Assembly (NCBI GenBank): GCA_025890175.1
Contig: JANPYM010000006.1
Span: forward strand, 1 to 64,000
Length of the DNA stretch: 64,000 bases
Reading direction: 5' to 3'
From: Ciborinia camelliae
Lineage: Eukaryota; Ascomycota; Leotiomycetes; Helotiales; Sclerotiniaceae
The position numbers and the translations under genes are program-made. This document shows, piece after piece, positions 4,741 to 61,531 of this stretch (within the stretch, counting starts at the first letter, position 1; the number at the start of each line of letters is the position of its first letter). The notes beneath the pieces are model-generated. The model was not told the origin of the DNA and did no database searches. It was given only the letters and a program-made list of their open reading frames with translations.

Positions 4741-4917
4741 AAATCAAAAGCCAGTTGCTGCCATGGCGCTTGATTTTTTGGATAATATCAGAAGGAATGA
4801 GTTCTTTATTTCAAGAGCTGAGGTCAACCTACCTATTCCTTGTATGAACTTTTAAAGAGTTTTTTGTTTGTGCTTTTCTCTTATCGCGTCTAGCTGGGGC
4901 TGTAGGTAACCCGGCGT

Positions 4918-6523: not shown

Positions 6524-7053
6524 AGGGGAAACTACTTATATTGTAAATGAACCAACCTATGGATCATGTCAGTGTTTAGCAGGAAGATATATAGGTGTGC
6601 AAAGCAAAGGATATTCAATTATAAATACGATGAGATTTGAAATTAAACCGTGAAATATATTAGTAATTGTTGGAATCACTCCGGGTTGTAACGTACGCGT
6701 GGTAATAGTAATCAATAAGTGTAGGATCTGAGTTGAACTTATTATTATTGATGATGTGAGGTTGTAGACCTGGAGATCTATATAAGCAGAACCACCCGGT
6801 CACATGCTAGTATATGCCGCAACAGTAATTAGAGTGGGCGATACCCATAGAGCCTGAAACAAATATATTAAGCTTGAGATCTAGTGACGTAACTTTCTAC
6901 TTATATATATAGCTACATTCCTTTTATAGTTTTTGAGACTATCAAGTTCGATTCAACACGCTAGTACAATTCTCGATTGATAATTAGAAACTATATACTA
7001 GGTTTATAACCACTGCTATAGAAGAGGCCAACCATTCATTATATTTGCGAACC
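6524..7053. other. Left flank of the 16.9-kb insertion
   Basis: No coding frame is supported. The interval 6667-6960 starts TTGTTGGAATCAC and ends GATTCAACAC, faintly like the termini of the GTGTTGGAAT MITEs at 24006 and 25466, but without a matching target duplication. Confidence 0.4.
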
Positions 7054-7061
7054 TTTACTTC
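7054..7061. repeat. Target-site duplication TTTACTTC (left copy)
   Basis: This 8-bp word directly abuts the left terminal repeat at 7062 and is repeated exactly at 23920-23927, directly after the right terminal repeat. Confidence 0.8.
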
Positions 7062-8047
7062 TAGACTACGTATAAAATACTCGCCCTATACAGGTACCCG
7101 CGAATTATTTGCCCCATAGGTTACCCACGAAACCTTCTACCTGCCCCGTAAGGCTTTATTGGAATTTCAAAATTATTTATTTTATATAGATTCTTTACAA
7201 ATAATTTGTAAATAATTTATTACTTTATAAATAAATAAATTATTTATATATTTATAAATTATTTATAAATAATTTATTTATTTATATTTTATAGATTATT
7301 TACAAATAATTTATAAATAATCTATTACTTTACAGATAAATAAATTATTTGCAAATTATTTATAAATAATCCGATTTGTATAAATTTTATAAATATATTT
7401 TTAGGGATTAAATAGGTTTTATAAATTTTAGATTTCAAATTTCAAATTAATATAAAAATTAATATAAAAATAAATATAATTATTTAATAAATTATTTATT
7501 TCTTTAATTATTTTATTAATTATTTTTAATCCTTTAAAATTTTGATTATTTAATTTTTTATATATTATTTTAATTTTAATTAATTTGTTATTAAATTTGA
7601 GATTCAATAAATAATTAATATTTTTTTTTTATAAAATTTAATAAAAGTTTTTGTAATAAATAATAAATCTAATATTTATAATATAATATTTAATAAATTA
7701 AATAAAATATTTATATATATTTTAAAATTATTATAATATAATAATATAAATAATAATAAATTTTAATGATAATTGTTTAATGAAAAAAAATATGAAGGGA
7801 AATAAAATCGATAATATTTTCGAATATTGCGTTTTTTGTTTGATTAAATTTTTTTAAGGATTACTAATAAATTAAACTTTATATTCGAAATATATTGAAA
7901 ATCCAAAAATTGTTTCAAAATTAGTTTTCGATTTTTTTATTTTGTTTTAATTTTTTTATTAATAAACTTATTTATTATAAATATATTAATAAGTTTTTTA
8001 TTAATAAAATCTTTTTTTATTAATTTTATATTTCAAATTATATAAAA

Positions 8048-8160
8048 ACGAGCTTTGCCTCCGGCCCCTCGATGCCGGAAAAAGGATTCGCCTCGCTACG
8101 CTCGTCGAATCATTTTTCAGGGCACCTTAGGACCTACAGCGCAGCTCGTCTGCCGGAGGC
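8048..8160. repeat. GC-rich island with interlocked inverted repeats
   Basis: In otherwise nearly pure AT sequence, this GC-rich segment holds perfect arms GCCTCCGGC (8057-8065) with GCCGGAGGC (8152-8160), ACGAGCT (8048-8054) with AGCTCGT (8143-8149), and GATTCG (8085-8090) with CGAATC (8106-8111). The first two pairings cross each other. No gene is visible. Confidence 0.7.
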
Positions 8161-8220
8161 TATCAGATACCTAATCTGGTAATATTGAAGCTATTCGCGA
8201 AATTCGCTTTTTTTTTGAAA

Positions 8221-8326
8221 TAAAATAATTAATAAAATAATTAATAAAATAATTAATAAAATAATTAATAAAATAATTAATAAAATAATTAATAAAATAA
8301 TTAATAAAATAATTAATAAAATAATT
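8221..8326. repeat. 12-bp tandem repeat (TAAAATAATTAA)n
   Basis: About nine uninterrupted copies of a 12-mer inside the AT block. Frames across it are meaningless. Confidence 0.9.
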
Positions 8327-8518
8327 ATTAATAATAAATTTCTTTATAATTATAAAAATAATAAGAAATAATTAACTATTCTAAAAATATAATTTAATTT
8401 TTAATTTTATTATATTTAGAATATTAATTGTTTTAATTTCTATTTATAATTGGATTAATTATTAATTATTATTTTTAAAGTTTATATAATTTATCTATTG
8501 CTTTTTATTTTTTTTAAT

Positions 8519-8778
8519 TTCTTTTTCTTTTTCTTTTTCTTTTTCTTTTTCTTTTTCTTTTTCTTTTTCTTTTTCTTTTTCTTTTTCTTTTTCTTTTTCT
8601 TTTTCTTTTTCTTTTTCTTTTTCTTTTTCTTTTTCTTTTTCTTTTTCTTTTTCTTTTTCTTTTTCTTTTTCTTTTTCTTTTTCTTTTTCTTTTTCTTTTT
8701 TCTTTTTTCTTTTTTCTTTTTCTTTTTTCTTTTTCTTTTTTTTTTTTTTTTTTTTTTTTTTTCTTTTTTTTTCTTTTT
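8519..8778. repeat. Hexanucleotide array (TTTTTC)n with poly-T
   Basis: About 30 copies of TTTTTC run to about 8700, then TTTTTTC variants and a poly-T run. The long Phe or Lys/Glu/Arg frames on the two strands come from the array and are not genes. Confidence 0.95.
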
Positions 8779-8939
8779 TTAATCTTTTCATTATTAATTA
8801 TTATTTCCAAATTTTATATAAATAATATTCTTTTATATTTTTAATTTTTATTTTTAATTTTTTACTTTTTTTATATTTCATTTTTAATTTTTAATTTTTT
8901 ACTTTTTTATTTTTTACTTTTTTACTTTTTTAATATTTC

Positions 8940-9075
8940 ATTTTTTATTTTTTTTATTCTTTTTTTTATTCTTTTTATTCTTTTTTTTTATTCTTTTTTT
9001 TATTCTTTTTTTTTATTCTTTTTTTTTATTCTTTTTTTTATTCTTTTTTTTTATTCTTTTTTTTATTCTTCTTTT
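8940..9075. repeat. Imperfect T-rich repeat (TTTTTTTATTC)n
   Basis: Irregular tandem copies of a T-rich word ending in ATTC, probably slippage-derived. No gene. Confidence 0.8.
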
Positions 9076-9377
9076 TATTTTTTTATTTAATTTTTTATTT
9101 ACTTTTGAATTACTTTTTAATTTTTTTAAATTCTTTTAAATTTCTTTTTATATTTTTCTTTAATCTTTTTATTTATTATTTAGAAAAATTATATAATTTA
9201 TATTTTGTTTTGAATTTTCTTTTATATCTTTTTTTATATTTTTCATTCTTTTAATCTTTTATAAAAGATTTTATTTATTTTTCTTTTAATTCCTTTTAAT
9301 TATTTATTAATATTTTCAAATTTTATACATTTATATTGATATTTAATTTTCTTTCTTTTTAACTTTTTTATCAATTG

Positions 9378-9812
9378 ATTTATTTTATTTATTTTATGTA
9401 TTTTATTTATTTTATTTATTTTATTTATTTTATGTATTTTATTTATTTTATTTATTTTATTTATTTTATTTATTTTATTTATTTTATTTATTTTATTTAT
9501 TTTATTTATTTTATTTATTTTATTTATTTTATTTATTTTATTTATTTTATTTATTTTATTTATTTTATTTATTTTATTTATTTTATTTATTTTATTTATT
9601 TTATTTATTTTATTTATTTTATTTATTTTATTTATTTTATTTATTTTATTTATTTTATTTATTTTATTTATTTTATTTATTTTATTTATTTTATTTATTT
9701 TATTTATTTTATTTATTTTATTTATTTTATTTATTTTATTTATTTTATTTATTTTATTTATTTTATTTATTTTATTTATTTTATTTATTTTATTTATTTT
9801 ATTTATTTTATA
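9378..9812. repeat. 9-bp tandem array (TTTATTTTA)n, about 48 copies
   Basis: A 9-base unit repeats for about 435 bp; a few early copies carry TATG for TATT. The unit length is a multiple of three, so one frame stays open as Phe-Ile-Tyr repeats; I regard that frame as an artefact. Confidence 0.95.
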
Positions 9813-9823
9813 CGATTTTATAT

Positions 9824-9889
9824 GTTCGTAGGGTTCGTAGGTTCGTAGGTTCGTAGGTTCGTAGGTTCGTAGGTTTATAGATTTATAGG
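9824..9889. repeat. Octamer array (GTTCGTAG)n
   Basis: Six to eight copies of GTTCGTAG follow the 9-mer array. The last copies read GTTTATAG and ATTTATAG, a gradient consistent with C-to-T and G-to-A changes. Confidence 0.85.
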
Positions 9890-10397
9890 TTTCAGCTAAT
9901 CAGCATCGTGTTTAACTTTTTCAAAGTACTTCTCAATTGTAACTTTAATTCTTTATATCATCAAAATATTTTCACAATTATTTTCATTTAAAATAATTTT
10001 TACAATATATAGTAAAATATAAATATTTATATTATATTCATTTTGTATATTGATTATTGTTGTATTTTTAATTAAATATATAATACCTATCTCTTAATTA
10101 ATTATATAATTAATTATATAATTTATTTATTTAATTAAATATATTAATTAATTAATTAAAAAATTAATAAATTATATATTTATTTAATTATACAGGGTAT
10201 AATTAAATGTACGGTACGGTAGTACGAACTACGCGAACATGTGCCTAGTACGATCATTCGAATCGTACAGGGTTCTTTCAGAATTCGAAACGCCGCATTA
10301 AGAAAGGTTGATTCTTTGTTCGATTTTGCATTGAAAAAAGCAATATAGTGGGGCATTTCATTTTCGATACTATGATTTTCAATCAATATAATCAATA

Positions 10398-13288
10398 GAG
10401 GGATTTAGCAAAATTTCCACACTAGCTAACTCTAGCGCTATACGCTAATTTAATGCAGCCCCACACAATAAACTACTATTAATTTAGTATGGTACAATAC
10501 TGATTAATATTTCAACTTATTATCAAAATTTGTATTCAACAAATACTATATTTTTAATTAATATTTAAAATGGTAGATTTTAAGGATATACTTTTTTTAA
10601 CAATCGTATATACTATTACTGTAGTTATCAATAATTTTAATTATAAATATTAACAATATTTCTTTTATTAATATTAATATAATACTCTTAATTTAAAATT
10701 AATACTATTAAAAAATACTTTTAAACTTTTTTAATTTTAAATATCAAAATTATTATAATTAATATTTTTACTTCAACTTTATTTTATTATTTATAAAGAA
10801 AAAATTATTATTAATCCTATTATTGCTTTTGTAATAATATACATACAATTATATTATTTAATTCGATTAATTATTTTTATAAATATATTTAAAAAAAGTT
10901 CTAATTAGCTTTTTATAATATTTAATAATATTTATATATATATTATTATATATTTTAAAAAGATATTACAATAACATTTTCAATTTTGAGATTATTAATA
11001 TTTATAAAAATTTGTTATTAATATAAAATCTATTATTTTTAAAATAGATTATATATATGGTTTTATAGATAATATATTTAAAAAGATTTGTTGTCTAGGG
11101 GGGAAATATTATAATTAAAAAGCTATATACTTTGGATATAAATATATATATAAGTTAATATAATAAATAATAATTATTTTTAATTTTTTAATTTTTTTAT
11201 TATTAAAGCCTTTTTTTGATTTAATGAATAATTGATTGATATAACAAAAAAATAAAATTAAATAAAATATTTGTAGTATTATATTTGAAAAAAATTTATT
11301 ATATATATATAAAAATCCTATATATAATAATATATACAGAATATTATATTTATTTAAAAGAAATAAAAAAGAGGGGGGGTGGTATAGTATTTTAAATTAA
11401 AAAAAGCAATTTAATATATATTTTGTTTTTGTACATATTATTATAAAACAATATTTTAGAAGAATCGAATTATTATAAAAGTTTATTATTTTTTCAAAGA
11501 GTTTAAGGATAGGGAGCTAACCTATAAATATATATTATATAGTAGTAATTTTATTAATTAATTATTAAATATGCTTAAAATATAAAGATAAAAATATAAA
11601 TCGATTTAGAATTAAATTTTTTATAATAAAAAAATATTTAGATATTAATATTATATTAAATAAATAAAGAATTATAATATAAATTTATTTAATATTATTA
11701 AGAAAATCTACTATTTGTTTTATTATTTTAAATTTAAATATATTTAAATCGTTTTTTTTTATTATTTTATTTTTAATTTTATTAATTTAAAGTTTAAATT
11801 TAATTTTTAAATCTTTTAATTTATTATTCAATTGTTTAAATAATATTGTTCCTATATATTCCCTTTTTCTTTTTTTTTTTAAACCCTATTTTTCTATTAT
11901 TATATCAATAATTTTTTAAAATAATTTTGTATTTTCGATCTATAAATTGAATCTCTTTTTGTAAATAAAAATAATTATATTAAAAGGATTTTTATCGAAA
12001 TCCTATACAATTTTATTATTTATAAAAAAATCCTTCTTTTTTTTATTTATTAAAACCTTTTTTCGATTTATAATAATATATACATTTCGTTTTTATTATT
12101 TAATATCCTTAATCTTTTTCTTTTTTTTTTTAATAATATATTTATATACATTTATTTTATCTTTATAATATTTTATTATAAAAATCTATTTATTAAAAAC
12201 AATATTAAAAAAACTATTAAATCGAATTTTATCTAAATTATATTTTATTAATATTTTTTTACATACCACTATTTATAAATCTACAACTTTAATTTAATTC
12301 CTTTATATTTATATCCTAATATCTTTATTATAAAATTTATTAATTTAATTAAAAAATGCAATTTTTATTTTTAATTTTTATATATTTTTAAATTAAATTA
12401 TTATATATATATAATTCGTTTTGTATATATTATTCTAATAATTTTTGTATTAAAAAAGTGTAAAGATATTATTGGGTTCTAAAATATAAATAAATTCGAA
12501 AAAGGGGGTAGATTTAAAAAAAAAAAAAAATTCGATAAAAAAGGTAAATTTAATAAAAAGGATAAATTCGATAAAAAGAATAAAAGTAAAGAGGATAAAA
12601 TTGATAGAGAGAATAGGATTGATATAGAGGGTAGGATTGATATAAAGAATAGAATCAATAGAGGAAATAAATTTGAATTCGATTAAGACTTATAAAAAAG
12701 CTTTAAAATAATTTACAAAATTTATAGATTATAATATATCTTGAATAAAGGGTAATTAAATTAAATCGAAAATAAATAATATAAATAATTATTTAATTGA
12801 TAATAATATTATTAATAATACTTGTATATATTTTAATATTTGTTTTTTATTAAATAATTTTAAAGGAACAAGTATATTAAATCAAATAAAATTTATATTT
12901 TTAAAATAAAAAAATATTGTACTTTAATTTGATATATTTTTTATTAAATTAATAATAATAATAATTATATAATTACAAAATAAAAAATATGTTTTTAAAA
13001 AAAATTAAAATTATAAATTTTGTTAATATTAATAAAATTAAAATTATTTTTAATTTAATTATATATTATATTAAATTAAAAAATAATAATTTAAAAAACT
13101 TAAAAAATATTTTTAACAATTTATTAATTTCATTTCTTATATCCACTTTATAGCAATTTTAGTAATTATAAAGGGTTTAATCCCTTTTTTAAAGTTCGAT
13201 ATTTATTTTGCTATATTAGACAAATTATCTACTATATTAGATATAGTTAGCAATAGATAGTAACGTAAGAAATTTTGCTAAAGACCTC
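10398..13288. mobile_element. 2.9-kb TIR element flanked by TA, Tc1/mariner-like
   Basis: The left end is GAGGGATTTAGCAAAATTTC (10398-10417) and the right end its inverted match with two differences (13269-13288). Each is bordered by TA (10396-10397 and 13289-13290), as in Tc1/mariner elements. Weaker similarity continues inward through CTA-rich sequence on both sides. The interior is heavily AT-mutated. A lysine/aspartate-rich frame (about 12526-12684) and a possible protease-like frame further on are readable but not diagnostic. No transposase was recognised, so the superfamily is inferred only from the ends. Confidence 0.5.
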
Positions 13289-16261
13289 TAATAGAATCAA
13301 AATACTATTTTACTGTATATATATATAATATAATACGCTTATCTCTTATTTAATTAATTAATCGTGATCTAGAACCTAGCCTACGTTCCCTGCGCCACGC
13401 ATATACCCCTGCATATGCGTAGCATGTGACCTGTACGACTTGCAACTTGCAACAATTATAAATATTTGTATTGATTGAAAAGGTTTTTTTCAATTAATGT
13501 TCCCGCACTAACCATCCGTACTTTTTGAACGCCCAATCAGAATCACGAATTCCAATTTAATTCGATCTTTTAAAATATATATGTTAGAGATAATATTATA
13601 AACGAAATATTTTTATTAAAATTAAAAACTTTTTTGATAAAGTTTTTATTAAAATAATTATATTCTTTATTTGATTAATAATATTAATATAAAACTAAAA
13701 ATATAAAATAATATTTATAAAATAATTACATTAATTTTATTTATTTAAATCCAAATTAAACTTATTTATTTCGAAATTATTAATTATATAACAATTATAG
13801 AATTTTATTTTATAATAATATCTTAAATTAATTACAAAGATTTCTTTTTAATCTTAATAATCTAAAAAAAATTAAATTTAATATAATATAACGAATTAAA
13901 TTTATATTAATTTTAATTATACCATATTATATTTATATTATTAATTAATATAAAAATTATATACATACCTTTATTAAAATATATTAAATATCTTTTTTAA
14001 TATTTTTATTTAAAATTTGTTTGTTTTATTAATCCTTTTAATTTCTTTAAAGCTTATTTTTAATAGGGTTAATATAAATAATAATAAAAAGTTTTTTCAA
14101 AATTAATTAAATAAAATAAATAAAGTAAATAAAGTAAAATATTTATATAATTCTTTAATTAAAAAATAATTAAATGAATTCAGATTTTTAAAATTATTTA
14201 TTAATCTAAATAATCAATATTTATATTTTTTAATATTATAATCCTTAAAATATTAATTAACAAAATCTAATAATTATATTTAATCCAAATTATTATCTTT
14301 ATATTTATTATTAATTATAATATATAAATTATATTATATTATTTATTTATTAATAATAAAAAATTAATATAAAAAAATAATATTATAATATTATTTAAAA
14401 ATTGAAAATTAATATAAAGATTAATATAAATTTCAAAAAATAAATTTATTTATTTTTTTAATCTCTAACATATATATTTTAAAACACTAAATTAATTAAG
14501 CGACAGCTAGGAATGCATAAAGCTAATTGGGCTAAAAAAATACAGATAATCTATACAAAAACATAGAAAAAAAAGTTAAGCAATTTGAAATATTAAGTAA
14601 CACAATGAATTTTAAACGATATATAAAATAATATTAAAAAGATATAAAAGAATTTATCAATTGAAAATTTTTTAATTATATATTTTTCGTTTTTTGGAAA
14701 TTTATAATTATAAAAAATTATATTGTTAAAATATATTTGAAAATATCTCAAATATTTTTGCTAAATTATATAATATAAAATTGATTCTAATTGGCTTTGA
14801 AATATAAATAACTTTAGATTATAATTTCAAAAATATTGTTTCAATATATTTTTGTATATTAATACTAATAATAAATATAAATAAAAAAAATGTAAATTTA
14901 ATATTTGTTTTATATATTTTTTATTTTTATATATTTTTTATATATTTTAATAAAATTTCTATAAACTTTAATTACGTTTTTGAATTTATTATATATATTT
15001 TATAATTATAAATATTAATATTATAAATTTAAATATACGAAATAATGTTAGATTTAATGATTTGATTGATAAGTATTTTTTAATTCGATATTAAATATAT
15101 AAAATATTTTATAATTATATTTTATTTCAAAAAACTTTAAAAAATAACGAAATAAAGCAATTAAAAATTTATCAAAAATACAAAAATAGATTAGTATTAT
15201 TACAAAATAATCAACAATTAAAAAAACTAAATTCTAAATCTAAAACATTGTAATTATTATTATTATTATAATCTTTATTATTACAATCTTTGTTATTGCA
15301 TTTATTATCTTTGCTATTTTCTTTTTCATTTATAACTTTAGTTTTATTTTTTTATGGAATTGCTTTTTTTATAAAATAATAACGCGAAAATTTATTGGTT
15401 AATATTAATATATTAATAATTGTAACAAAAACTTATAAAAAAGATTATCGATTATAAAAAATATATATTTGAAAAATATTATTTATATAAATAAATATTT
15501 ATAATATAAATCTTTTTTTTATAGATTTATTTGGGTTTATAAATAAGTTTTGCAAATAATATAATGCTTTATATTTCAAATCAAAAATTATAAAAACAAA
15601 AATTAGATTAATTATCCGATTTATTTATAATATTAAATATTGTATTAATAAAAATATTGATTTTATATTTTCAAAAATGTTTGATTTGATAATAAAATTA
15701 TAGATAATCCAAAATCCATAAAGCGAAGAGTTTAAAAAGAATATCAAAAAATATAATAATATATTTGTTTTTATATTATTTAAATATAATAAAAATCAAA
15801 AACTAAATTATATTAATAATAATTAATTCATTTTTATTATATATAATTATTATTATTATTATTAAGATTTTTTTACTAAACTTTTTAATAAAAAATCTAT
15901 TTTTAATTAATTATTCCTTTATAATTTTATATATACAATTAATATTTAAATAAATATAATAATATATATTAATTTTAATTATATTATTATAATATAAATT
16001 AATATATTAATTTGTAATTCCAATTTATATATTGTATTATATAAATATATAAAAAAAATGATAACATAATAATATTAATTAAATAACAAAAAATTTAGAA
16101 TAATTCTTAATTTCAAATTACAATTAATTATTAAAAAATAAAATGAAAAATATTAAAAAAAATATAATTTATTTATAATATTGAAAATTGTTTTTATTAT
16201 TTCTAATAAAAAAAATAATAGAAAATTAAAAAGCTTTTAAAATATTGTTTTTGATATTTAT
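13289..16261. other. AT-rich interior, probably including the Helitron 5' part
   Basis: A short, less AT-biased stretch at 13365-13560 includes an ACGCATA/TATGCGT hairpin. The rest is nearly pure AT. By comparison with usual Helitron protein length, the N-terminal few hundred codons of the gene at 16262 should lie here, but I could not follow the frame with confidence. Confidence 0.45.
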
Positions 16262-19200
16262 TAATATAATAAAAAAAAAAAAAAAATTCTTTTTAATTAT
16301 TTATATATTATATATATATTATATTTATTATATATCCTTTTTTATTATATTATTTTATTTCTAATAAATAAATTAGATTAAAATTTTAATTTAAAATTAA
16401 ATTTTATTAATAATTTAAATCGAATTCGAATTAATATAATTTAATAATAATAATATTATTAGATAATCTTTATTTGTTATAATATAATAATTAATAATAA
16501 TCGAATTATAATTATTAATATTAAACTTTTCAATTTTTTTTTTTATATAAATTTTTTATTTTAATAATTTTTAATAGATTTTTATATTTTTATTAAAAAA
16601 TTTCGGTTAATATATATTAAAAATAATCAAAATAAATTAAGATTTAATATTTATTATAACTTAGTGAATACTTTTAAAATTAAAAATACAAATATTAATA
16701 TTTTTGAAAAGTAAATTATATTATCTTTTTTTTATTTTAAAAATAAATAATTTATATAACAAATTTATTAAAATATTATAATAATAATACGGAAGATTGA
16801 TAAATCTTTATTTTTTATTATATTTATATATAATATTAATTAATCCAAAATTCAAGATTAATTATTATTTAAATAAATTGTTATAAATTAATTTAATATT
16901 ATAATACAAATATTTTAATAAAAAATTAAAACTATAATCAAAAATATTAAAAATCCAAATAATTTTTTTAATAAATATATTAATTATATTATAATTATTG
17001 AATATTAAAAACAAAGCTTTTTATATATATATTTATTTTTTAATATATAATAATATAAATATTTATATAATAAACCAAAATTAATAAATAAAATGATTTT
17101 AATTAAATTTTCATTCCTAAAATTGGATTTTATTAGTAAATTAATCGAATTAATCAAAAAGTATATAATTTATAATTTTTATAAATATTATAATCTAATA
17201 ATAATATATATATTTAATAAAGATAATATTATAATATTTATATATTTAAAAAAGTTTTTTAAATTTTTTTAAAAAAATATTTTTATATTAAATAATAATA
17301 ATATATATCTATAATATTATTATTAAATTAAATTATTATAAAAAATCAGAAAATTATAAATATATATTAATAAAAAAATAAAATTGAATAATAATTGAAT
17401 AATATTATATAATTTATATTTTTTTATAAAATATAAAGTTTATATTAATATTAAAATATATATTATAATTTTGATTATTAAATATATTTATAAATATATT
17501 TTTAAAAATATAAATAAAGTTATCTTGAATATTAATGATTTATTAGTAAATAATAAAATTTATTAATATATTTTTAATTAATATATTAATATTATTAAAA
17601 TATATTAATAATTAATAAAATATAATATATATTAATATTATTTTTTTGTAATTAGATTAATAATTTATAAAAAAAAATAATAAATAATTTATTTCGAGGA
17701 TTTAATTGTTAATAAGTTGATTATAAAAATAAAGATTAATTATATTATATTATTAGGATGATTTTGATATAATAAAGATAATTTATATTATAAAAAAAAA
17801 ATATATATAATTGATAGTATAGAAAAAAAAATATAAATTAATTTTTTTGATATTTTATATCTAGATTTTCCTAAATTTGTTATTTGGAATGTTTTTAATA
17901 AAATTTAGAAATTAAAAAAAATAAAAAAAAATATTTTATTAGTCGATTAATTATTAAAAGCGATTGATTGTATATATTATATAAATATATTTTTTAATAA
18001 AAAATATTATTTTCAATATTTTTTTATTATATTATTTAAAGTTATATATTACAAAAACTTGTATATATATAATAATATTAAGTATTTTATATTTCGAAAA
18101 AATTATATTATATATAATATTATAAATAACAATTAAAAATAAATAAATGTTTTTAATAAAATAAAAAACTTTTAATTGATAAATCAATTAAAAAAAATAT
18201 TTATTTTAGTTTTTAAAAACAAACTTATTTTGGATTTATTAAATATTTGGATTAAATTTAAAACAGATTTTGTTGATTCAAATTTAACTCAAGATATAAT
18301 TAAATAAAAAGTATAATTTCTATTAAATTTAATAAATTTTATAGAAAATTATATTTTATATTTAATACAAATAAATTTAACAAAAAACAATTTAATTATA
18401 ATTTTGAAAAATAATAATCTTTTAGTATTTTAATATAATTAGGGCAATTATATAGAAAATAATAATATATATATATTTAAAAAAGAATTTCAAAAATTTA
18501 ATATTTTCTTTTTAATATTAAATATAAATCAATATTAAATATATAATATAATTATTAATATTATTAAAAAAAATCTTATTATAATATATTTTTATTTTTA
18601 AGGATTAGGGGGGTATAACAAAATCTATCTATATATTATAATATATTATTATTATTATAATAAAAATATATTAGTTTTTTATATTATTTTTATAAAAATC
18701 ATGATTCTTTTATTATTTGGAAATAATATTTCTTATTTATATTTTGAAATTTTTATTAATCTTTTATCGAATTTGATTAATAATATTAAAAAACAAAATA
18801 TTATAATACAAATATTATTAAAATATTTATTAATTATTTGAAATAAAATTGTAATATAATATAAAGAATGTTTTGAATTAATATATAAATTATTTTGCAA
18901 TTTTGTTGATTTTTTATAATAAAATTTTAATATATTTTTAATAAATGAAAAACCGATTATTTTTAATAGGGATTTTGTTTAAACTTTATTTATTATTTTC
19001 AAAAAATTTAAGTATAATATTATTAATATATTTATTTAAAGTAATTAAATATAATCTTTATTTTGAAAAATTAATTTGTATATAAATATAAAAATAGATA
19101 ATATAAATTAAGATAAATGAATAAATAAAATTGTTTAATTCAAAAATTGGATATTAAAATTAATATATAATAATAATAATATTGATTATTGTTATTTTCC

Positions 19201-19933
19201 AGATTTTATTTAGAAATTATGTATTATTGATATTTTTATTAACAAAATTTTTTTTAAAAATGTATTTATTGTAAGTTTGTATAAATATAATAATTTTTTT
19301 TATAAAAATCAATATATTATTACAATCAAAAATATTATAATTGCTAAAATCAACAAATTGATTATCAATTAATTATTAAAGGAATGCAAAATTTTATTAT
19401 TATATAATATTTAAAAAAATAAAAAAAAAATTAATAAAAAAAATAAATAATAATAATTTATAAAGAATTTACAAATTATAAATTTATCTAAACTTTTATT
19501 TGTAATATTAAAAGTTAAAATAAATATATTTATAATATATTTACGAAATATTTAGTTAAAGATAAGGTTATGCAATAATTTTAAAATAATAATAACAAAT
19601 ATCAAAATATATATTTTGAAAATTATATTATTAAAAAACGATTTTTATAATATTATAAAATATATTTTATATATAAATCTGCAAAATTAAATTAAAGAAT
19701 TGCTATTTATATTTAATCATAAATAATTTTTATTGAAATTATATTTTATAATAATTATAAATAAATTTTAAAATTAAAGATTTAAATATATTGATATAGA
19801 TTTGAAAAGTTTATATTTTAATTATAATCAATTTTATATTGTAATAATATAAAATAAAGATTTATAATATCTTTATATATTATTATTTTTAAATAATAAA
19901 AGAAAATTAGATAAAACAAATAATATTATATAA
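16262..19933 (+). pseudogene. RIP-mutated Helitron Rep-helicase (RepHel) gene
   Basis: One frame (codon starts at 16262+3n) can be followed for about 1,220 codons without a detected indel but with dozens of stops. In order: a PLHYVLLFP-like stretch (about 16322); YYAYRL-like then LFQQFLID (16556-16579, both Gln codons now TAA); an FITFTCNPNW-like segment (16814-16843); the Rep HUH region at 16997-17041, where IEYQK survives with Gln as TAA and the HxH reads Tyr-x-Tyr (17024-17032, CAY to TAY). Then NPYLLLKYNxHINVE-like (17402) and YKYIYKGHDR-like segments. The Pif1-type helicase follows: Walker A as GLGGYNKI (18602-18625), IIWDE as II-stop-NK (18833-18847), GGDFRQTLP as NRDFV-stop-TL (18965-18988), and a C-terminal INKSQGQSF-like motif (19757). 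The probable end is TAA at 19931. A Helitron rolling-circle transposase, now dead. Confidence 0.8.
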
Positions 19934-21682
19934 TTGAAGATATTAAAAAATATTAATAATTAATAATATATTTAAAAAAATCTTTCAAAAAAGCTTTTTA
20001 ATATATATCATATTTCTTTTTTATATTTCCAAATTGAATTATTTGCTTATACAATTAACTGTTAAAAAATTTTTATATAATTTAAAGAAAAAAAGCAATT
20101 GTAATTCAAATAACAAATATATAACCTACTTTTTATCTTTTTTTTTTTTTTTTCTTTCTTTTCAATTTTCATTTGTTTTTCAATTTATTTCAATTATATT
20201 TTATAATATTATTATTATTAAAACTTTATTTTATTTTAAAATAACAAATTAATATATATATACTTAAAGTTTTTCTTTTACTTTTATCGAATATATTCAA
20301 TAAAAATTTATTATTGCCTTTTTTGTTCCTATCATTAATATTAATACTAATACTAATATTAATACTAATACTAATACTAATATTAATATTAATATTAATA
20401 CTATTATCGCTTTTGCTTTTGCTTTTATTCTTATTATTCTATATTTATTAACCTTACTAACAAAAAAAATAATATTATCAATCTTATTATTGATAATAAT
20501 AATAATAATAATAATTCTAATACACCTATTAAAATTCAATCTTTTTCGATTTTATAAAACCATATTATTCTCAATATCCTACAAAAAAATATTAGATTTT
20601 TTGTATTTACCTAAAAGAAAAATATATTAAATAAATTTATAATTAATTAAATATTATTTTCCAATTAATAATTTATAATATATTAAAATTTGACAAAAGT
20701 TTTGTATTACTAAATATTAAAACAATCTTAAATCGCCCTTAACTCTTTTTCGATAAAATCAACTTATATTATAGTTTTTCAAAAACAATTATTAAAATTT
20801 AAAATTTTTTTCCAAAATAATCTTTGAATTAAAAATATAAATAATATTGTTATAAAATATATTCAGTTAAAAAAATTTACAATATATATTTACAAATATA
20901 TTCGAATTTATTATACAAATCAAAATTGTTTCAATTATTTATTTTTATTTTATATTTCCAATAAAATATAAGAATTATAATATAGATATATTACGAATAA
21001 AGCAAATTTGCAAATTGGATATATTATATTAATCCAAAAACATTTTAAAAGTTTTTTTTTTATAATTATTTAATATATATAATATATAAAACAAAAAATG
21101 AAAAAGTTTATATAAACGAAATAATTTAAAATAAATTATTATTAAATATTAATATTAACAATAATGATTTGTATAATTATTTAATAATATATATAATTAT
21201 TAAATGTAATTAATATATATTACTCGAATAACAAAATAAAATATAATAAAATATTTAATACCCCAAATAATATATAATCCAAAATATAATGTCTTTGATA
21301 ATATAATATTTTATATAAAATAGAATAATATATAAACATTTAATATAATATTTTTGGTAATATATAATTTAGGATATAATACTATTAATAATATAACATT
21401 TTATAGAAAACAAAATAATATTTAAATAATTTTATATATCTAATAATATTACAATATAATAATATTTTATAAATAATAAAATAGTATTGCTATATAATTG
21501 CAAACTATTATTATCATTATTATTGCTATATAATTACAAATTATATAACAAAAATACTAAATTAATTAAATGATAATTGAAAATGTATAAAATTGATTAT
21601 ATATATTATTAATTGTTTAAATTTATAAAACTTTACAAGCTATGCAATACAAACGATAAAGAAAATTATGAAAAACCGTAAT
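19934..21682. other. AT-rich sequence downstream of RepHel
   Basis: No gene is supported. A microsatellite-like ATTAATACTAAT tract lies at 20334-20402 and a CTTTTG repeat at 20408-20430. Irregular repeats with AATATAATATTTTATA cores occur at 21290-21480. Confidence 0.6.
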
Positions 21683-21748
21683 CAATAATAATAGCCAAGT
21701 CTATGACGAAGGCTATTATTATTGGTCGGCCCGAGCGGCCGTACTTAA
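21683..21748 (+). repeat. Copy 2 of the hairpin-ended repeat; possible Helitron 3' end
   Basis: A perfect 14-bp inverted repeat (CAATAATAATAGCC, 21683-21696, against 21711-21724; 14-base loop) is followed by a CGGCC/GGCCG stem and TACTTAA, after which similarity to the 541-602 copy stops. Helitrons end in a short hairpin close to the 3' terminus, and this lies 1.8 kb downstream of the helicase end. The canonical CTRR terminus is not present, so the assignment is tentative. Confidence 0.45.
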
Positions 21749-22680
21749 GCTCGTTAATATATAATTCAAAAAAACAAAATATTTTATATCTTACAAATTC
21801 AATATATTATACTTAGTTTAAAATCTTTTTATTATTAATTATTATATTATTTATTATATATAAAATTTAATATATTATTATTTTTATAAAAAATTCAATA
21901 TTTTATATTTAATTTATTATAAAATAGTTTATATTTATTTTAATATTATAATTTATAAATAACAATTTTTATTTATCTTTATTATTTTTAATTAAAATAA
22001 TTTTCTTTTTATTTTTTTTATTTTTTTATTTTTGTTTTTATTTTTGAAAAACTTTATTTCTTTTTTTTATAATTTTTATAATTAAAATTATTATTGTTAA
22101 ATTAAATATATTAACCATTATTTTTTTTATATTCTAATTTTTGCTTTATAATTAATATATAAATATTTTTTATTTTTTTATATTACAAATTAAAATGAAT
22201 TAATATAAAATTAAATGTATTTATATATATTATTTATAAATAATTTTATTTTTAATTTATTTTTTAATTTTTATTTATTTATTTACATTTATTAAAATTT
22301 ATTTTTTAGATTTATAAATTTTATTTAATTAATATATAATTACATTTTAATTATTGATCTTAGTTTTTTCGATTTGAATTTCGAATATATTCTGATTATT
22401 TAAGCGATTTCGAGTTTTTATAATATAAATATTATTTAATAATTTAAATAATGCTTTATATTTTAATAATATAATTAATATAAAGATTAATATAAATTAT
22501 TAAAATTATTTATTATATAAAAATAAATTAAAGTTTATAAAAAATAAAGAATTTATATATCAGAATTTGCTTAATTTTTAAAATAAAAATTAATTTATAT
22601 ATTAATATTGCTTTTTTCGTTTTTAAATTAATTTTTTTTTCTTTTTTTTTTTCTTTTTTTTTTTTTTTTTNNNNNNNNNN

Positions 22681-22722
<42 letters not shown>

Positions 22723-23072
22723 TATTATTCAACTCCATTTTTCAATATTAAACCTAATAATAATAAATTATCTATATTATATTTCGATATTTAAATAAAT
22801 GCTAATATATTTTAATAAATAAAATATCCTTTAACCTATAAAAAGATTCTTTTCATATAATTATAAATAATACAATTAATACAGTTTATAATTGTATAAG
22901 TCAAAAATAATTAATTATATAAAAAATAAAAAAAAAATAAAAAGTAATCAAAATTAAAAAAAAATGTGAAAATAAAAACCAAGTAATAAATTCTTTATTT
23001 TATTAATAATTGTCGAATCACCTCGGTGGTATCAAAATATATATAGTAGAAAATAGTATATTATAAAAGCAT
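21749..23072. other. AT-rich sequence with an assembly gap
   Basis: Ten N's at 22671-22680 sit inside a poly-T run of uncertain length. No gene or structured repeat is visible otherwise. Confidence 0.8.
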
Positions 23073-23176
23073 GCAGATCGATCGTAGATCGATCTGCGAG
23101 CTTATATGCCCGCGGGGTGCGGGCATATCGGCCGCACGCGGCCGCACGCTCCGGTGAATCTGCCCTGCAGATTCAC
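23073..23176. repeat. GC-rich island of three perfect hairpins
   Basis: Three consecutive perfect stems occur: 23073-23083/23087-23097 (11 bp, loop GTA), 23104-23113/23119-23128 (10 bp, loop GGGGT) and 23154-23163/23167-23176 (10 bp, loop CCT). A direct repeat of CGGCCGCACG (23129-23138, 23139-23148) lies between the second and third. The surroundings are over 85% A+T by eye. Confidence 0.85.
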
Positions 23177-23566
23177 TGGTATCGCAACAATAATTAATAA
23201 AATTTTTGATATATCAAAATTAATTATTATATTTTATGAAATTCGTTATTATTAATAATTATTTAATTTTTTTATATCAAAATTATTTTTTAATTATTTA
23301 ATTAAAAAGATTATAATAAATATTATATCGGATTTTTGTATTCAACATTTAATATTAAATATTTTGCAAAGAATAATTAAAATTATTTTAATAATTAAAT
23401 TTTTATATTAATTTTTATATTAATTATTAAAAATAATAAATTTATATATTATTTATATAAAACAAATAACAATTTAATAAAAAAATTATATAAATATATA
23501 TTAAATTATTTATATACAAAAGATAAAAAATATATTATAATTAAATATATTAATTTTAAATTTTTA

Positions 23567-23630
23567 ATATAAATAATTTTTAATATAAATAATTTTTAAT
23601 ATAAATAATTTTTAATATAAATAATTTTAA
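23567..23630. repeat. 16-bp tandem repeat (TTTTTAATATAAATAA)n
   Basis: Four near-perfect copies close to the right end of the 16.9-kb element. No coding content. Confidence 0.8.
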
Positions 23631-23919
23631 ATTATAAATTATATAAATATAAATTATTTATTTATTATTATTTTTTTATACAAAATAAATTATTTATAAA
23701 TAATTTATAAATAATCCGCAAATATACAAATAATCTATAAATATATAAATAATTTATTTATTTATAGATAAATAAATTATTTACAAATTATTTGCAAATA
23801 ATTTGTATAGGGTACAAAATATTCATTAGGATTTAGTATTATTTGTTTTGTATATAGATTATTTGTAAATAATCCATCAGCTTTAATATCCGCCCCGCGG
23901 GGCCCTGTTGCGCAGTCTA

Positions 23920-23927
23920 TTTACTTC
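23920..23927. repeat. Target-site duplication TTTACTTC (right copy)
   Basis: Identical to 7054-7061 and directly adjacent to the right terminal repeat ending at 23919. Confidence 0.8.
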
Positions 23928-24005: not shown

Positions 24006-24169
24006 GTGTTGGATAAATCACGTGCCTACCGCATGCAGCGCACGCAGCGGCACCCCCGCGCTAGCGGGCTTATATAGTTGATCTGTAGCATAGTTTTTTA
24101 GAGCTTCGAGCCAAATACACTGCATACTATAGTACATTTGTTCTCCATCGCCCATGGTGATTCCAACAC
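24006..24169 (-). mobile_element. 164-bp MITE, GTGTTGGAAT ends, TTA duplication
   Basis: The ends are GTGTTGGAT and ATTCCAACAC, flanked on both sides by TTA. The interior includes a CCCGC-GCTA-GCGGG hairpin and matches the reverse complement of the MITE at 25466 along most of its length (shared blocks such as ACTATAGTATG and TATGCTACAGAT). TIR plus 3-bp TNA duplication is the PIF/Harbinger pattern; the superfamily is inferred. It lies immediately 3' of the SSP-2 gene. Confidence 0.65.
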
Positions 24170-27341: not shown

Positions 27342-27349
27342 ATTGTACA
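27342..27349. repeat. Target-site duplication ATTGTACA (left)
   Basis: Exact 8-bp match to 27741-27748 on the other side of the 391-bp element. Confidence 0.85.
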
Positions 27350-27740
27350 TAGACTGCGCAACGGGGCCCCGCAGGGCGGGTACAAATAATTTGCAAATAA
27401 TTTGTACGGGATGGGTTAATAGGTTATTTACAAAATTGTGAATTTTTTGTAGATTTTTAATAAATTTTTGATAGATTTTGTAAATGTCATTTATTTTTTG
27501 AAACTATTTATAATTTTTATATTAATTTTTATATTAATTTAATATATTTATATTATTTATAATTTTTATATTAATTTTTATATTATATTTATAAATATTT
27601 ATGAAACCTACGGGTAGATAGGTTATTTGCAAATAATTTGCAAATAACCTGTACGGGGCGGGTAGAAGGTCTTGTGGGTAACCCGCGGGGCAAATAACCC
27701 GCGGGTACCCGTACGGGGCGGGTATTTTTTGCGCAGTCTA
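27350..27740 (+). mobile_element. 391-bp MITE with 12-bp perfect TIRs (hAT-like)
   Basis: The terminal inverted repeats are TAGACTGCGCAA (27350-27361) and its perfect complement (27729-27740), flanked by the 8-bp duplication ATTGTACA. The element has GC-rich subterminal blocks (GGGCGGGTAC, CCCGCGGGTACC) and an AT-rich centre with TTATTTGCAAATAA palindromes. It carries no coding capacity. The ends define the family that also borders the 7062-23919 block. An 8-bp duplication points to the hAT superfamily. Confidence 0.85.
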
Positions 27741-27949
27741 ATTGTACAAATGCAGAAACTACTAAAACCGATGAATAAACCTCGCAAACTTGAAATTGAT
27801 GCTTATCATTAAAAGAAGTAAACCTTCCTATGTATTCATACTCCAGCCAACTTGGATTGACCTAACAAATTGGCACTTAAAAGGAACTGGTTTGAGTGGA
27901 AGTTGATGAAGAATTCCGCCGGATTAAGCCACACTACGATACTTGAAGT

Positions 27950-58764: not shown

Positions 58765-60415
58765 TTTTGAAGCATCCGAAATCCTTTAGTTTGATTACCG
58801 CGCTCGATTGTTGCGCTCGACTATGAAAACTATCATCACAATGCTTACCCGGCAATGCAATCATCGTCATCTCTACCACGATCATGGCGCGGTAATCTTA
58901 CAGAAGTCTCATGTACTAAGAATTTGGGCATGGCTTAGATCTGAGACTTTGACCCTTATCAAGATCTTTTGTATCAGTTATCAGGTCAAAGACCTCATTT
59001 GATGGAAATTCAAGTCCAGAGTTTCTCCCAGTCATAATATCGCCAGAAATAGCAGTTGATTGCCTGGATCGTAAGCCCAACACTCCTATGTCTTGGCAGG
59101 TGACCATCGTCACTAAAGGATACTCTCCTCGCGTCTTGAATTTGTGGAGTGTTTCATTACCCACCGCTTCTCTAGCACCAAGTACAGAACGTGCCGATTC
59201 CAGCGATCGTCCAAGTGCAGATGGTCCACTCCGTCTAGCACTCACTGGTAACAAGCCTTCCTGGAGAGAAGCAGCCAAGACAGTAGATGATGGTTCGTCA
59301 GACTCTACTCTTTCTCGTCATACCCATGACCCGTGGAGTCACCTTGACAGCAATTTGTTGATAGTATTCTCTCATACCTTACCATTGTCGAATGTTCAAC
59401 TCTACACTCTCCATATCATAATGAATCATTTCACGGTGTGTTTTCGATGCCTGGTCCGGTTGCCGTCATATCACTCAGGAATGTCGGAGCTTGCGGTACA
59501 GAGGACAGATGGGTCATGATTTCATATACCAAACTAGGTCTAGATATCATACTTCATAGTCTAATTAATCAACTTTGCATTTAATACTTTGTTTCTATAT
59601 TTTTGGTTCAGATGTGGCATATGTAAATTAAACCAGAGTACCTCGTGGTATAAAATAACAGAAAAAAATTCATAATGTACAAACCAGACTATTTATCGAC
59701 CACTTTGCACATTGATGTCGGGCAATATAATCTTTCTCATCTTCTCTGCGATTCTGATGTTATTTATTTTAGAATTGATATACAAAATCAGGAAGTTACT
59801 TTGACTGCATTGCATGATGGATGATGGATAACCTGTACAGTACAGTATCTGCAATAAGCACTTAGAAAATTGAACACGCGTAGGGAACGAAATTCGTCAT
59901 TGTCATTATGATTCGCCGGCGCTTACAGCCGCGCAAAGATTCTATTTAAAGGTTCATCCTGTGGTCTTATGCGCCTCTCACTCATCATTCGATTTGTAAT
60001 GTACATGATTCGTCTAAAATCACAAAACTTTGACTTTTACGTTACAATAGCGTTCTCATTCTCACTCACTCTTTGAAGAGAAAAATGCCATTTTTAGGTC
60101 ATTCATCACATCATTACTGCGACCTAACAGAAAATATATTTTGTAAGCTTGGTTGTCCGAGTCTGAGTATTCACCTAATCACCCCAGCAAAACTTAAAAT
60201 AACTACCATATCAGTCATTGGATATGATTCACAGGCGCTTACAGGCGCTTGCAATCATGAAAAAGCTATATAGTTCAAGGTTTTGCGGGTCTATGTATCT
60301 CCAGTCTTGTGCATTTTTTCTCTAAGAAACAAAACCGACTTTTACAAAACCGACTTTCCGTTTGTCTAACTCTCTCACTCAAACTCCTGTTTTCTATCCA
60401 TTACCTTCATTCATA
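58765..60415. other. Intergenic; no convincing gene
   Basis: Frames of 143 codons (+, 59088-59519) and 120 codons (-, 58916-59278) overlap on opposite strands; neither has a recognisable domain. Near 59925-60310 two passages resemble each other (ATTCGCCGGCGCTTACAG against TGATTCACAGGCGCTTACAG; CAAAACTTTGACTTTTACG against AAAACCGACTTTTACAA), perhaps a small local duplication in the promoter of the next gene. Confidence 0.45.
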
Positions 60416-61531
60416 ATGTATAGCTCAAACCTTCTCATCGCGATCTCATCGCTTTCAACCCTCATCGCTGCAGCGCCTTTCTCAGTCGACAATTCCTTCC
60501 TCAATGCTGTAACAGCAACCGATACAAGTCCATTGCTGGCAATCCAAACCCAAGCCCATGGCTCCCTTTCCAATATCCCTCCCCCGCCCGCACTGGCTGG
60601 AGGAAATGATAGTCTCACCAATTTCAAGTTTGTTGCCTTCAACGAAATCATGGAAGTTGCATTCTTCGAAGAACTCGTCTACAATATCACTACCAATGTC
60701 ACGGGATACACATTCACAAATCAAACTGAAACTAATAATGTGCTTATAAACTTGAATGCTATCGTCGCACAAGAAAAGTTGCATGCATTAAATGCCGAGA
60801 AAGCCATCGTTCGATTTACCAATGATACGAAAGCCATCATTCAGCCCTGTCAATACAACTTCCCAGTCAATACTTTCAACGAAGCTATCGCTATAGCATC
60901 TCTTTTCACAGATGTAACCATGGGTACATTGGGCGATATCCAAACAGTTTTCGGAACAAATGGCGATTCCGCATTCATCCGCGGTGTCGCAGCAGCACTT
61001 GGACAAGAAGGTGAACAAAATGGATTTTTCCGCCAAATTCTCAATAAAATCCCATCAGCCCTTCCTTTCTTGACACCTAGTACAAGAGATTTCGCATTCA
61101 GTGCTGTAATGCAAAACTTTGTTGTTCCAGGAAGTTGTCCAAATAATGACAGTATCCCTCTCAAGACCTTCCAAAAGCTCACTGCCATACAACCGGATAA
61201 TATCAACGCCAACTCCACCATCAAATTCACATTCCAGCTTAATGGATCTCAAAGCTATAACACCACCTGGGGAGAGAAGTGTAAAAATCTTTCCCTTGTG
61301 TATATCAATCAGCTAAATAAACCTGTGGTTCAACCATTCGATACCATCAGTTTACAAGATGGAGTGACGGTGGCTATTACTGCCAAGTTTCCATTTGATG
61401 CGGGTGCTAAGAATGGTGCTCCGGGTAATGGGTTGACTTTGGCGGCTTTGGCTGTTGGGAAGGACTTTGCAGATGTTGTGGATGTTTCTAATAAAACAGT
61501 TTTTGGACCGGCGCCGATTGAGGTTAATTGA
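60416..61531 (+). CDS. Secreted ferritin-like protein of the LsdA/Rds1 type, 371 aa
   Basis: The ATG at 60416 is chosen because it begins a signal peptide (MYSSNLLIAISSLSTLIAAAP). A ferritin-2-like helical domain follows: NFKFVAFNEIMEVAFFEELV, LNAIVAQEKLHALNAEKAIV and FIRGVAAALGQEGEQNGFFR. Glu and His occur at the places where the diiron ferritin fold has ligands. Then comes a conserved Cys-containing PGSCPNN region, and about seven N-glycosylation sequons are visible. Homologs are the late sexual development protein LsdA of Aspergillus and stress-induced Rds1 of fission yeast; biochemical function is not established. Single exon. Confidence 0.8.
   Translation: MYSSNLLIAISSLSTLIAAAPFSVDNSFLNAVTATDTSPLLAIQTQAHGSLSNIPPPPALAGGNDSLTNFKFVAFNEIMEVAFFEELVYNITTNVTGYTFTNQTETNNVLINLNAIVAQEKLHALNAEKAIVRFTNDTKAIIQPCQYNFPVNTFNEAIAIASLFTDVTMGTLGDIQTVFGTNGDSAFIRGVAAALGQEGEQNGFFRQILNKIPSALPFLTPSTRDFAFSAVMQNFVVPGSCPNNDSIPLKTFQKLTAIQPDNINANSTIKFTFQLNGSQSYNTTWGEKCKNLSLVYINQLNKPVVQPFDTISLQDGVTVAITAKFPFDAGAKNGAPGNGLTLAALAVGKDFADVVDVSNKTVFGPAPIEVN

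Follow-up and report, generated by a model that had tools for sequence, protein, structure and literature searches.

In Monilinia, a genus of the Sclerotiniaceae, the regions affected by repeat-induced point mutation (RIP) are described as 14–103 kb long and rich in transposable elements (Mariner, hAT, Gypsy), with a guanine-plus-cytosine (GC) content of 17.1% in M. fructicola and 18.8% in M. laxa. The same account, as far as it extends, gives classical changes at CpA plus CpG and CpC double changes, so that a wider mutation context is already known in this fungal family (PMC8959702). A+T-rich blocks of RIP-mutated repeat copies are outlined for Leptosphaeria maculans (PMC4352252), and the giant Starship transposons for the Pezizomycotina (PMC12289983). 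Here we describe an A+T-rich block at positions 7054-23927 of a 64,000-nucleotide stretch of Ciborinia camelliae DNA (positions 1 to 64,000 of contig JANPYM010000006.1, assembly GCA_025890175.1; hereafter the window), the two ends of which are those of a miniature inverted-repeat transposable element (MITE). The block resembles the L. maculans blocks in kind and has its host in the same family as the Monilinia regions. It differs from the latter, as these are outlined (PMC8959702), in a GC of 12%, which falls to about 10% or less over several kb, and in having one split MITE as its outer limits. Like the Starships in the available outline (PMC12289983), it is large and lies in the Pezizomycotina; unlike them, it shows no sign of a cargo-gene unit, no search having been aimed at a captain gene.

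The block is very probably a MITE of about 0.5 kb which was cut in two by nested insertions and then largely mutated by a RIP-like process. A sequence-only reading of the same DNA had offered two accounts, a giant element with hAT-like ends and a small element that serial insertions had split before it was mutated. The second turned out to be largely right, as seen from the complementary arms, the inner duplications and the empty or spanning sites; the first finds no support, the arms being parts of one 516-position profile and three inner pieces having duplications of their own.

Outer termini and the two arms

The outer features of the block, and an intact relative nearby, are as follows.

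7054..7061, no strand: left 8-bp target duplication TTTACTTC, exact sequence
7062..7494, plus strand: left MITE arm, secure as far as 7258 and probable as far as about 7494; a 105-bp tandem repeat occupies 7173-7367
23528..23919, plus strand: right MITE arm, secure from position 23697 onward
23920..23927, no strand: right 8-bp target duplication TTTACTTC, exact sequence
27342..27748, minus strand: intact 391-bp MITE of the same family (MITE proper 27350-27740) with perfect 12-bp terminal inverted repeats (TIRs) and the duplication ATTGTACA

The left boundary reads TTTACTTC at 7054-7061 and then the terminus TAGACTACGTAT at 7062-7073; the right one reads the terminus TTGCGCAGTCTA at 23908-23919 and then TTTACTTC at 23920-23927. 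These are the exact letters, and the TIRs and perfect duplication lie precisely where the sequence-only reading had placed them. The segment 7062-23919 is framed by a perfect 8-bp repeat, and the MITE-type ends are thus about 17 kb (16.9 kb) apart. When up to four TIR mismatches in sum and up to one mismatch in the duplication were allowed, only two TIR pairs were found in the window, the block ends and the MITE at 27350-27740. Under stricter limits (three and none), which both of these pairs satisfy, no pair appeared in 60 first-order Markov shuffles of 48 kb each, built from the window without the block. The junction of left duplication and TIR occurs once in the 46.2-Mb genome.

The homology to the MITE family reaches well past the TIRs. 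A family profile of 516 model positions was built from 16 copies of 440-600 bp and searched with nhmmer; 7062-7258 corresponded to model positions 1-190 (E 3.2e-42) and 23697-23919 to 287-516 (E 1e-46), on the same strand and without overlap in the model. The outer element is therefore present as complementary halves, as a nested insertion would leave it, and on this alignment the two arms together appear to be one MITE of normal size, about 0.5 kb. In pairwise alignments with 24 members of 380 bp or more, left-arm matches ended at 7489-7497 in 9 of the 24 (among the top three shown), and the best right-arm matches started at 23504-23639 in 13 of the 24. The proposed correspondence of the block ends with both ends of the MITE at 27350-27740 was borne out: the left end of the block resembles the right end of that MITE and vice versa, both being correctly oriented, so the block stands in the opposite orientation. 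A large element could show the same terminal homology, and it is accordingly the inner parts that decide between the two accounts.

The block has a GC of 0.12 against 0.36 and 0.40 in its flanks, and to this extent the idea of a low-GC block bounded by transposon termini holds. The edge of composition lies slightly inside the termini. GC is still 0.40-0.56 over the outermost 100 bp of the left side and the outermost 50 bp of the right side, and the A+T-rich core begins about 100 bp inside the left end and ends about 50 bp inside the right end. A 10-N gap within the block sits in a T run, and the length of the block is therefore approximate.

Elements between the arms

Between the arms the following features were delimited.

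7495-8048, 9892-10052, 13460-14842, 21761-23005 and 23195-23527: stretches without an element of known ends
8049..9891, plus strand: dispersed repeat A, with a G+C-rich start at 8049 and a TTCGTAGG tail; edges taken from L055-L057
10053..10057, no strand: 5-bp duplication ATTAT, left of solo long terminal repeat (LTR) B
10058..10396, plus strand: solo LTR B, left part (TGTTG...); identity to L049 and L050 about 98%
10397..13289, plus strand: element C, 2893 bp, TIR AGAGG..TTTAGCAAAATTTC, inserted in LTR B
13293..13454, plus strand: solo LTR B, right part (...GCAACA)
13455..13459, no strand: 5-bp duplication ATTAT, right of solo LTR B
13557..14495, no strand: candidate foldback D, inverted repeats GTTAGAGAT..ATCTCTAAC of 67 nt and 76% complementarity; status uncertain
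14843..21760, no strand: dispersed repeat E, about 7 kb, GC 0.10; end near 21760, exact ends not settled
22671..22680, no strand: assembly gap of 10 N
23006..23194, plus strand: solo LTR F, 179 bp (23011-23189, TGTCG..GCAACA), with ATAAT on both sides

Inner duplications, as expected of nested insertions, are present for LTR B, LTR F and element C, and uninterrupted sites were found elsewhere for LTR B and element C only. LTR B is about 98% identical to LTRs on C23 and C5 (L049 and L050), and its flanks, when joined, match across the junction at C6:1049363, C21:235227, C3:2231422 and C21:445982 with 71-76% identity over most of the query; these four spanning matches serve as empty sites for LTR B. 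Element C is flanked by the 3-bp duplication AAT (10394-10396 and 13290-13292) and is missing from the same LTR in both L049 and L050, the latter (on C5) being an exact empty site. Further copies of element C lie on C8, C5 and C25; the C8 and C5 copies sit in other flanking sequence, each with a 3-bp duplication of its own (ATT and AAT). Being enclosed by LTR B, element C must have arrived after it.

LTR F is identical to two other copies at 177 and 175 of 179 positions. It was also tried as a repeat of 700 bp, and the alignment gave the 179-bp LTR followed by weak A+T-rich similarity. The 5-bp duplications matched in all seven solo LTR copies checked, and none contained more than a single G or C. 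No match is present at an eighth LTR, L050, which appears to be a complete element's 3' LTR and so would not be expected to have one.

Repeat A has many copies elsewhere in the genome. It ends in a TTCGTAGG array, and two other copies (L056 and L057) share sequence past that tail. These observations bear on the Helitron that the sequence-only reading put among the inner insertions, Helitrons being marked by 5' TC, 3' CTRR with a hairpin, an A|T target and Rep/helicase. Long tandem arrays of TTTTTC and TTTTATTTA occupy 8490-9811 within it. Repeat E likewise has many copies, among them C1:3550719-3557838, C6:1018269-1024747 and C21:236804-241393; the matches of three copies begin at 14843 and those of others (such as C1:5067127 and C1:5123875) further to the left. 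When its own ends were compared for an LTR or TIR structure, only weak matches of 65-83% were obtained, similar to the A+T background. Two G+C-rich palindromic islands persist in sequence of about 10% GC, at 21684-21760, which is conserved in a copy of E on C1 (L058), and at 23065-23190, which is part of LTR F.

Mutation of the block

The two MITE arms of the block differ from the family majority almost entirely in one direction, with 51 of 56 changes being C>T/G>A. The MITE at 27350-27740 shows no such change in its first 85 bp by the same comparison. Element C yielded 145 transitions and one transversion over four end comparisons with two copies. The C>T/G>A bias that RIP leaves in repeats is thus present in the arms and element C, and absent from repeat E and the near-identical LTRs. 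The expectation that the block was mutated as one unit is not exact, as the arms and element C are mutated and the solo LTRs nearly unchanged (about 98% identity for B; 177 and 175 of 179 for F).

LTR B and LTR F are nearly unchanged, while element C within LTR B is heavily mutated. RIP has a repeat-length threshold, and the escape of the short LTRs from RIP is the likely explanation of the intact shell around the mutated element; alternatively, element C may have moved into LTR B when already mutated.

RIP usually prefers CpA. The MITE copies show no such preference: in the 11 heavily mutated copies, namely the block arms (7062-7179 and 23850-23919) and ten others, the losses at CpA (43/153), CpC (160/548) and CpG (128/428) were nearly even and that at CpT was lower (19/110), with 20 other changes of C or G. 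The reference for this count was a set of eight lightly mutated copies; the heavy and light sets were picked by C>T counts from copies of 380 bp or more, six intermediates being set aside. A count against the majority consensus of 24 copies of 420 bp or more gave 0.17-0.18 in all four contexts. Between the copies of element C the corresponding values were CpA 49/116, CpC 27/61, CpG 15/36 and CpT 54/180. In lacking the CpA preference expected of RIP, the locus would differ from the RIP-mutated blocks of L. maculans. We infer that the mutator was premeiotic RIP, a process that depends on RID/DIM-2 and the sexual cycle. If the even mutation of CpA, CpC and CpG proves to be genome-wide, it could help to explain a GC near 10% in this fungus, and it would matter for software that detects RIP through CpA/TpA indices, the product and substrate thresholds of which the block fails.

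The MITE family and the rival accounts of the locus

The MITE family is dispersed, the copy at 27350-27740 alone having at least 116 matches in the genome. Perfect TIRs number 57, and those with up to one mismatch 181, against 62 for a reversed control. Copies were examined in 40 fetched regions and the window; the regions were picked around perfect TIRs, so that worn copies are under-represented. Both termini were found in 33 copies, with an exact 8-bp duplication in 23, one mismatch in six and neither in four. Besides the block, the 32 paired copies measure 159-1411 bp (L012, for example, 1174 bp). The two ends differ inward of the TIR, and all 31 copies tested could be oriented by them. A short copy, L029, stands outside the 33, as its right TIR has two mismatches and was missed at the limit used; it has no duplication. 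Two candidate single ends, L040 and L041, had no profile match beside the TIR and are probably due to chance. A literature search found no paper plainly about this family, which is not proof of its being unpublished.

Three further copies are interrupted, two within the 33 (L039 and L047) and one outside (L037). L039 (8203-9119) holds an inverted-repeat insert of about 0.9 kb at a TA. L047 (8218-8656) holds two solo LTRs, one of them F-type, with the duplications ATAAT and GTATA, and is interrupted at one further point. In L037 the split falls at model position 42; its right end was not found, hence its place outside the 33. Beside these copies, the block appears as the most extreme case in a series.

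MITEs with 8-bp target duplications are usually filed under hAT, and this family resembles such MITEs in its 12-bp TIRs, 8-bp duplications, dispersal and size of 159-1411 bp. The short-TIR consensus of hAT elements is the 5-base YARNG, from which the TIR here departs, beginning TAGAC with C as its fifth base. Known hAT clades prefer the targets nTnnnnAn or nnnTAnnn. In the 23 exact duplications, which were not co-oriented, position 4 was A in 14 and position 5 was T in 13, in agreement with neither. No transposase partner was found: the profiles PF05699 and PF14372 gave no match in this genome, and none in any of 14 control genomes either. The hAT label attached earlier to the ends fits the duplication length, exact in 23 of 33 copies, but not the TIR, and is not confirmed.

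In the history that we favour, a non-autonomous MITE of about 0.5 kb would have inserted, creating the 8-bp duplication, and later elements (repeats A and E, LTR B, element C and LTR F) would have inserted into it and into each other. An LTR retrotransposon would have recombined to leave solo LTR B, into which the 2.9-kb inverted-repeat element C landed, and the insertions would have pushed the MITE halves 16.9 kb apart. A RIP-like C-to-T process acting on repeated DNA would then have mutated the arms, element C and probably most of the long inner repeats, lowering GC to 6-13%; flanks and short solo LTRs would have stayed normal. The first insertion to hit the MITE, the order of the A+T-rich pieces and the cause of the low GC of repeat E are parts of this history that we infer.

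Several results weigh against it. About 3.7 kb of the interior contains no element of known ends. An empty outer site was sought within this same genome and not found, the right flank ending in a short dispersed repeat. When the two arms are aligned with individual members, the left and right matches overlap by about 18-194 bp for several of them and stay apart for the rest, so that the breakpoint within the MITE is not fixed; we read these overlaps as alignments over-extended where the sequence is A+T-rich and repetitive. Family homology was also seen at seven single ends (L030, L031, L033, L034, L035, L037 and L042) that have no partner within the stretches fetched, of up to 10 kb, and the block may therefore have another long counterpart. 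Repeat E, compared with a copy at one end, shows 112 transitions and 86 transversions, a mixture that makes the RIP reading weak for E. Over the whole block the RIP indices are 0.97 (product) and 1.15 (substrate), both missing the thresholds of > 1.1 and < 0.75 that are given, in outline, in PMC8959702. Finally, A and E recur as a pair at C2:2264500-2273400 (L064), ordered and oriented as they are in the block and separated by 2.2 kb; in L064 coordinates A begins at 1971, with its tail at 4803, and E begins at 7050, its edge being the one found at 14843 in the window. This pairing slightly lowers our confidence in the nest, and A and E may not be wholly independent arrivals.

The C2 pairing would suit a giant hAT-like element in which MITE-type ends moved with about 16 kb of cargo as a unit, as would the perfect outer duplication with its correctly oriented ends, and terminal homology alone cannot tell such an element from a split MITE. 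We nevertheless consider it very unlikely, because LTR B, LTR F and element C carry their own duplications, empty or spanning sites exist for two of them (LTR B and element C), the arms sum to one MITE, and no other paired copy exceeds 1411 bp. The C2 locus itself was considered as a second copy of the whole block and rejected: the MITE profile found no arm in the 8.9 kb fetched, and the sequence between A and E had no match to the block at E 1e-40. Among the matches listed, no second whole copy joins these ends to comparable cargo, as a genome check proposed earlier might have revealed, and ends and cargo were not seen to have moved jointly to several sites. The presence of matching TIRs and a perfect target duplication at a distance of 17 kb does not prove a giant mobile element. 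That the ends were brought together by two separate MITE insertions, or by ectopic recombination between two copies, is hardly credible: the family is dispersed, so exchange could occur, but the outer 8-bp repeats are identical, the left junction is unique in the genome and the arms do not duplicate the same part of the MITE in the profile search. A further alternative concerns mutation only and is compatible with the nest, namely that the A+T richness is mostly inherited repeat composition and not the outcome of mutation at the locus. In the MITE cores and part of LTR B, near-identical copies are A+T-rich as well, and the mixed differences of E and the block indices point the same way; since element C and the MITE arms differ from their relatives almost only by C>T/G>A-type changes, we regard this as unlikely.

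A MITE split by a nested cluster is ordinary in kind for such genomes. The locus shows that the outer limits of an A+T-rich block can be fixed by a single short element, and that the order of nesting is partly readable from duplications and empty sites. A more tentative suggestion, which we put forward with some doubt, is that the half-kilobase MITE seeded a new A+T-rich island in gene-bearing DNA, its A+T core being favoured by retrotransposons that target A+T-rich DNA and that each enlarged the target for later ones, and C>T change without CpA preference then bringing much of it to about 10% GC; were this so, MITE ends would mark where the island began.

Just beyond the right end of the block, at 24007-24077, lies a short G+C-rich dispersed repeat with at least 34 other matches in the genome. 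Further along the window, a single protein, encoded at 60413-61531, makes Sclerotiniaceae very likely as the host family; it has 80% identity to that of Sclerotinia borealis, 79% to S. sclerotiorum, 77% to Botryotinia globosa and 69-73% to those of three Monilinia species.

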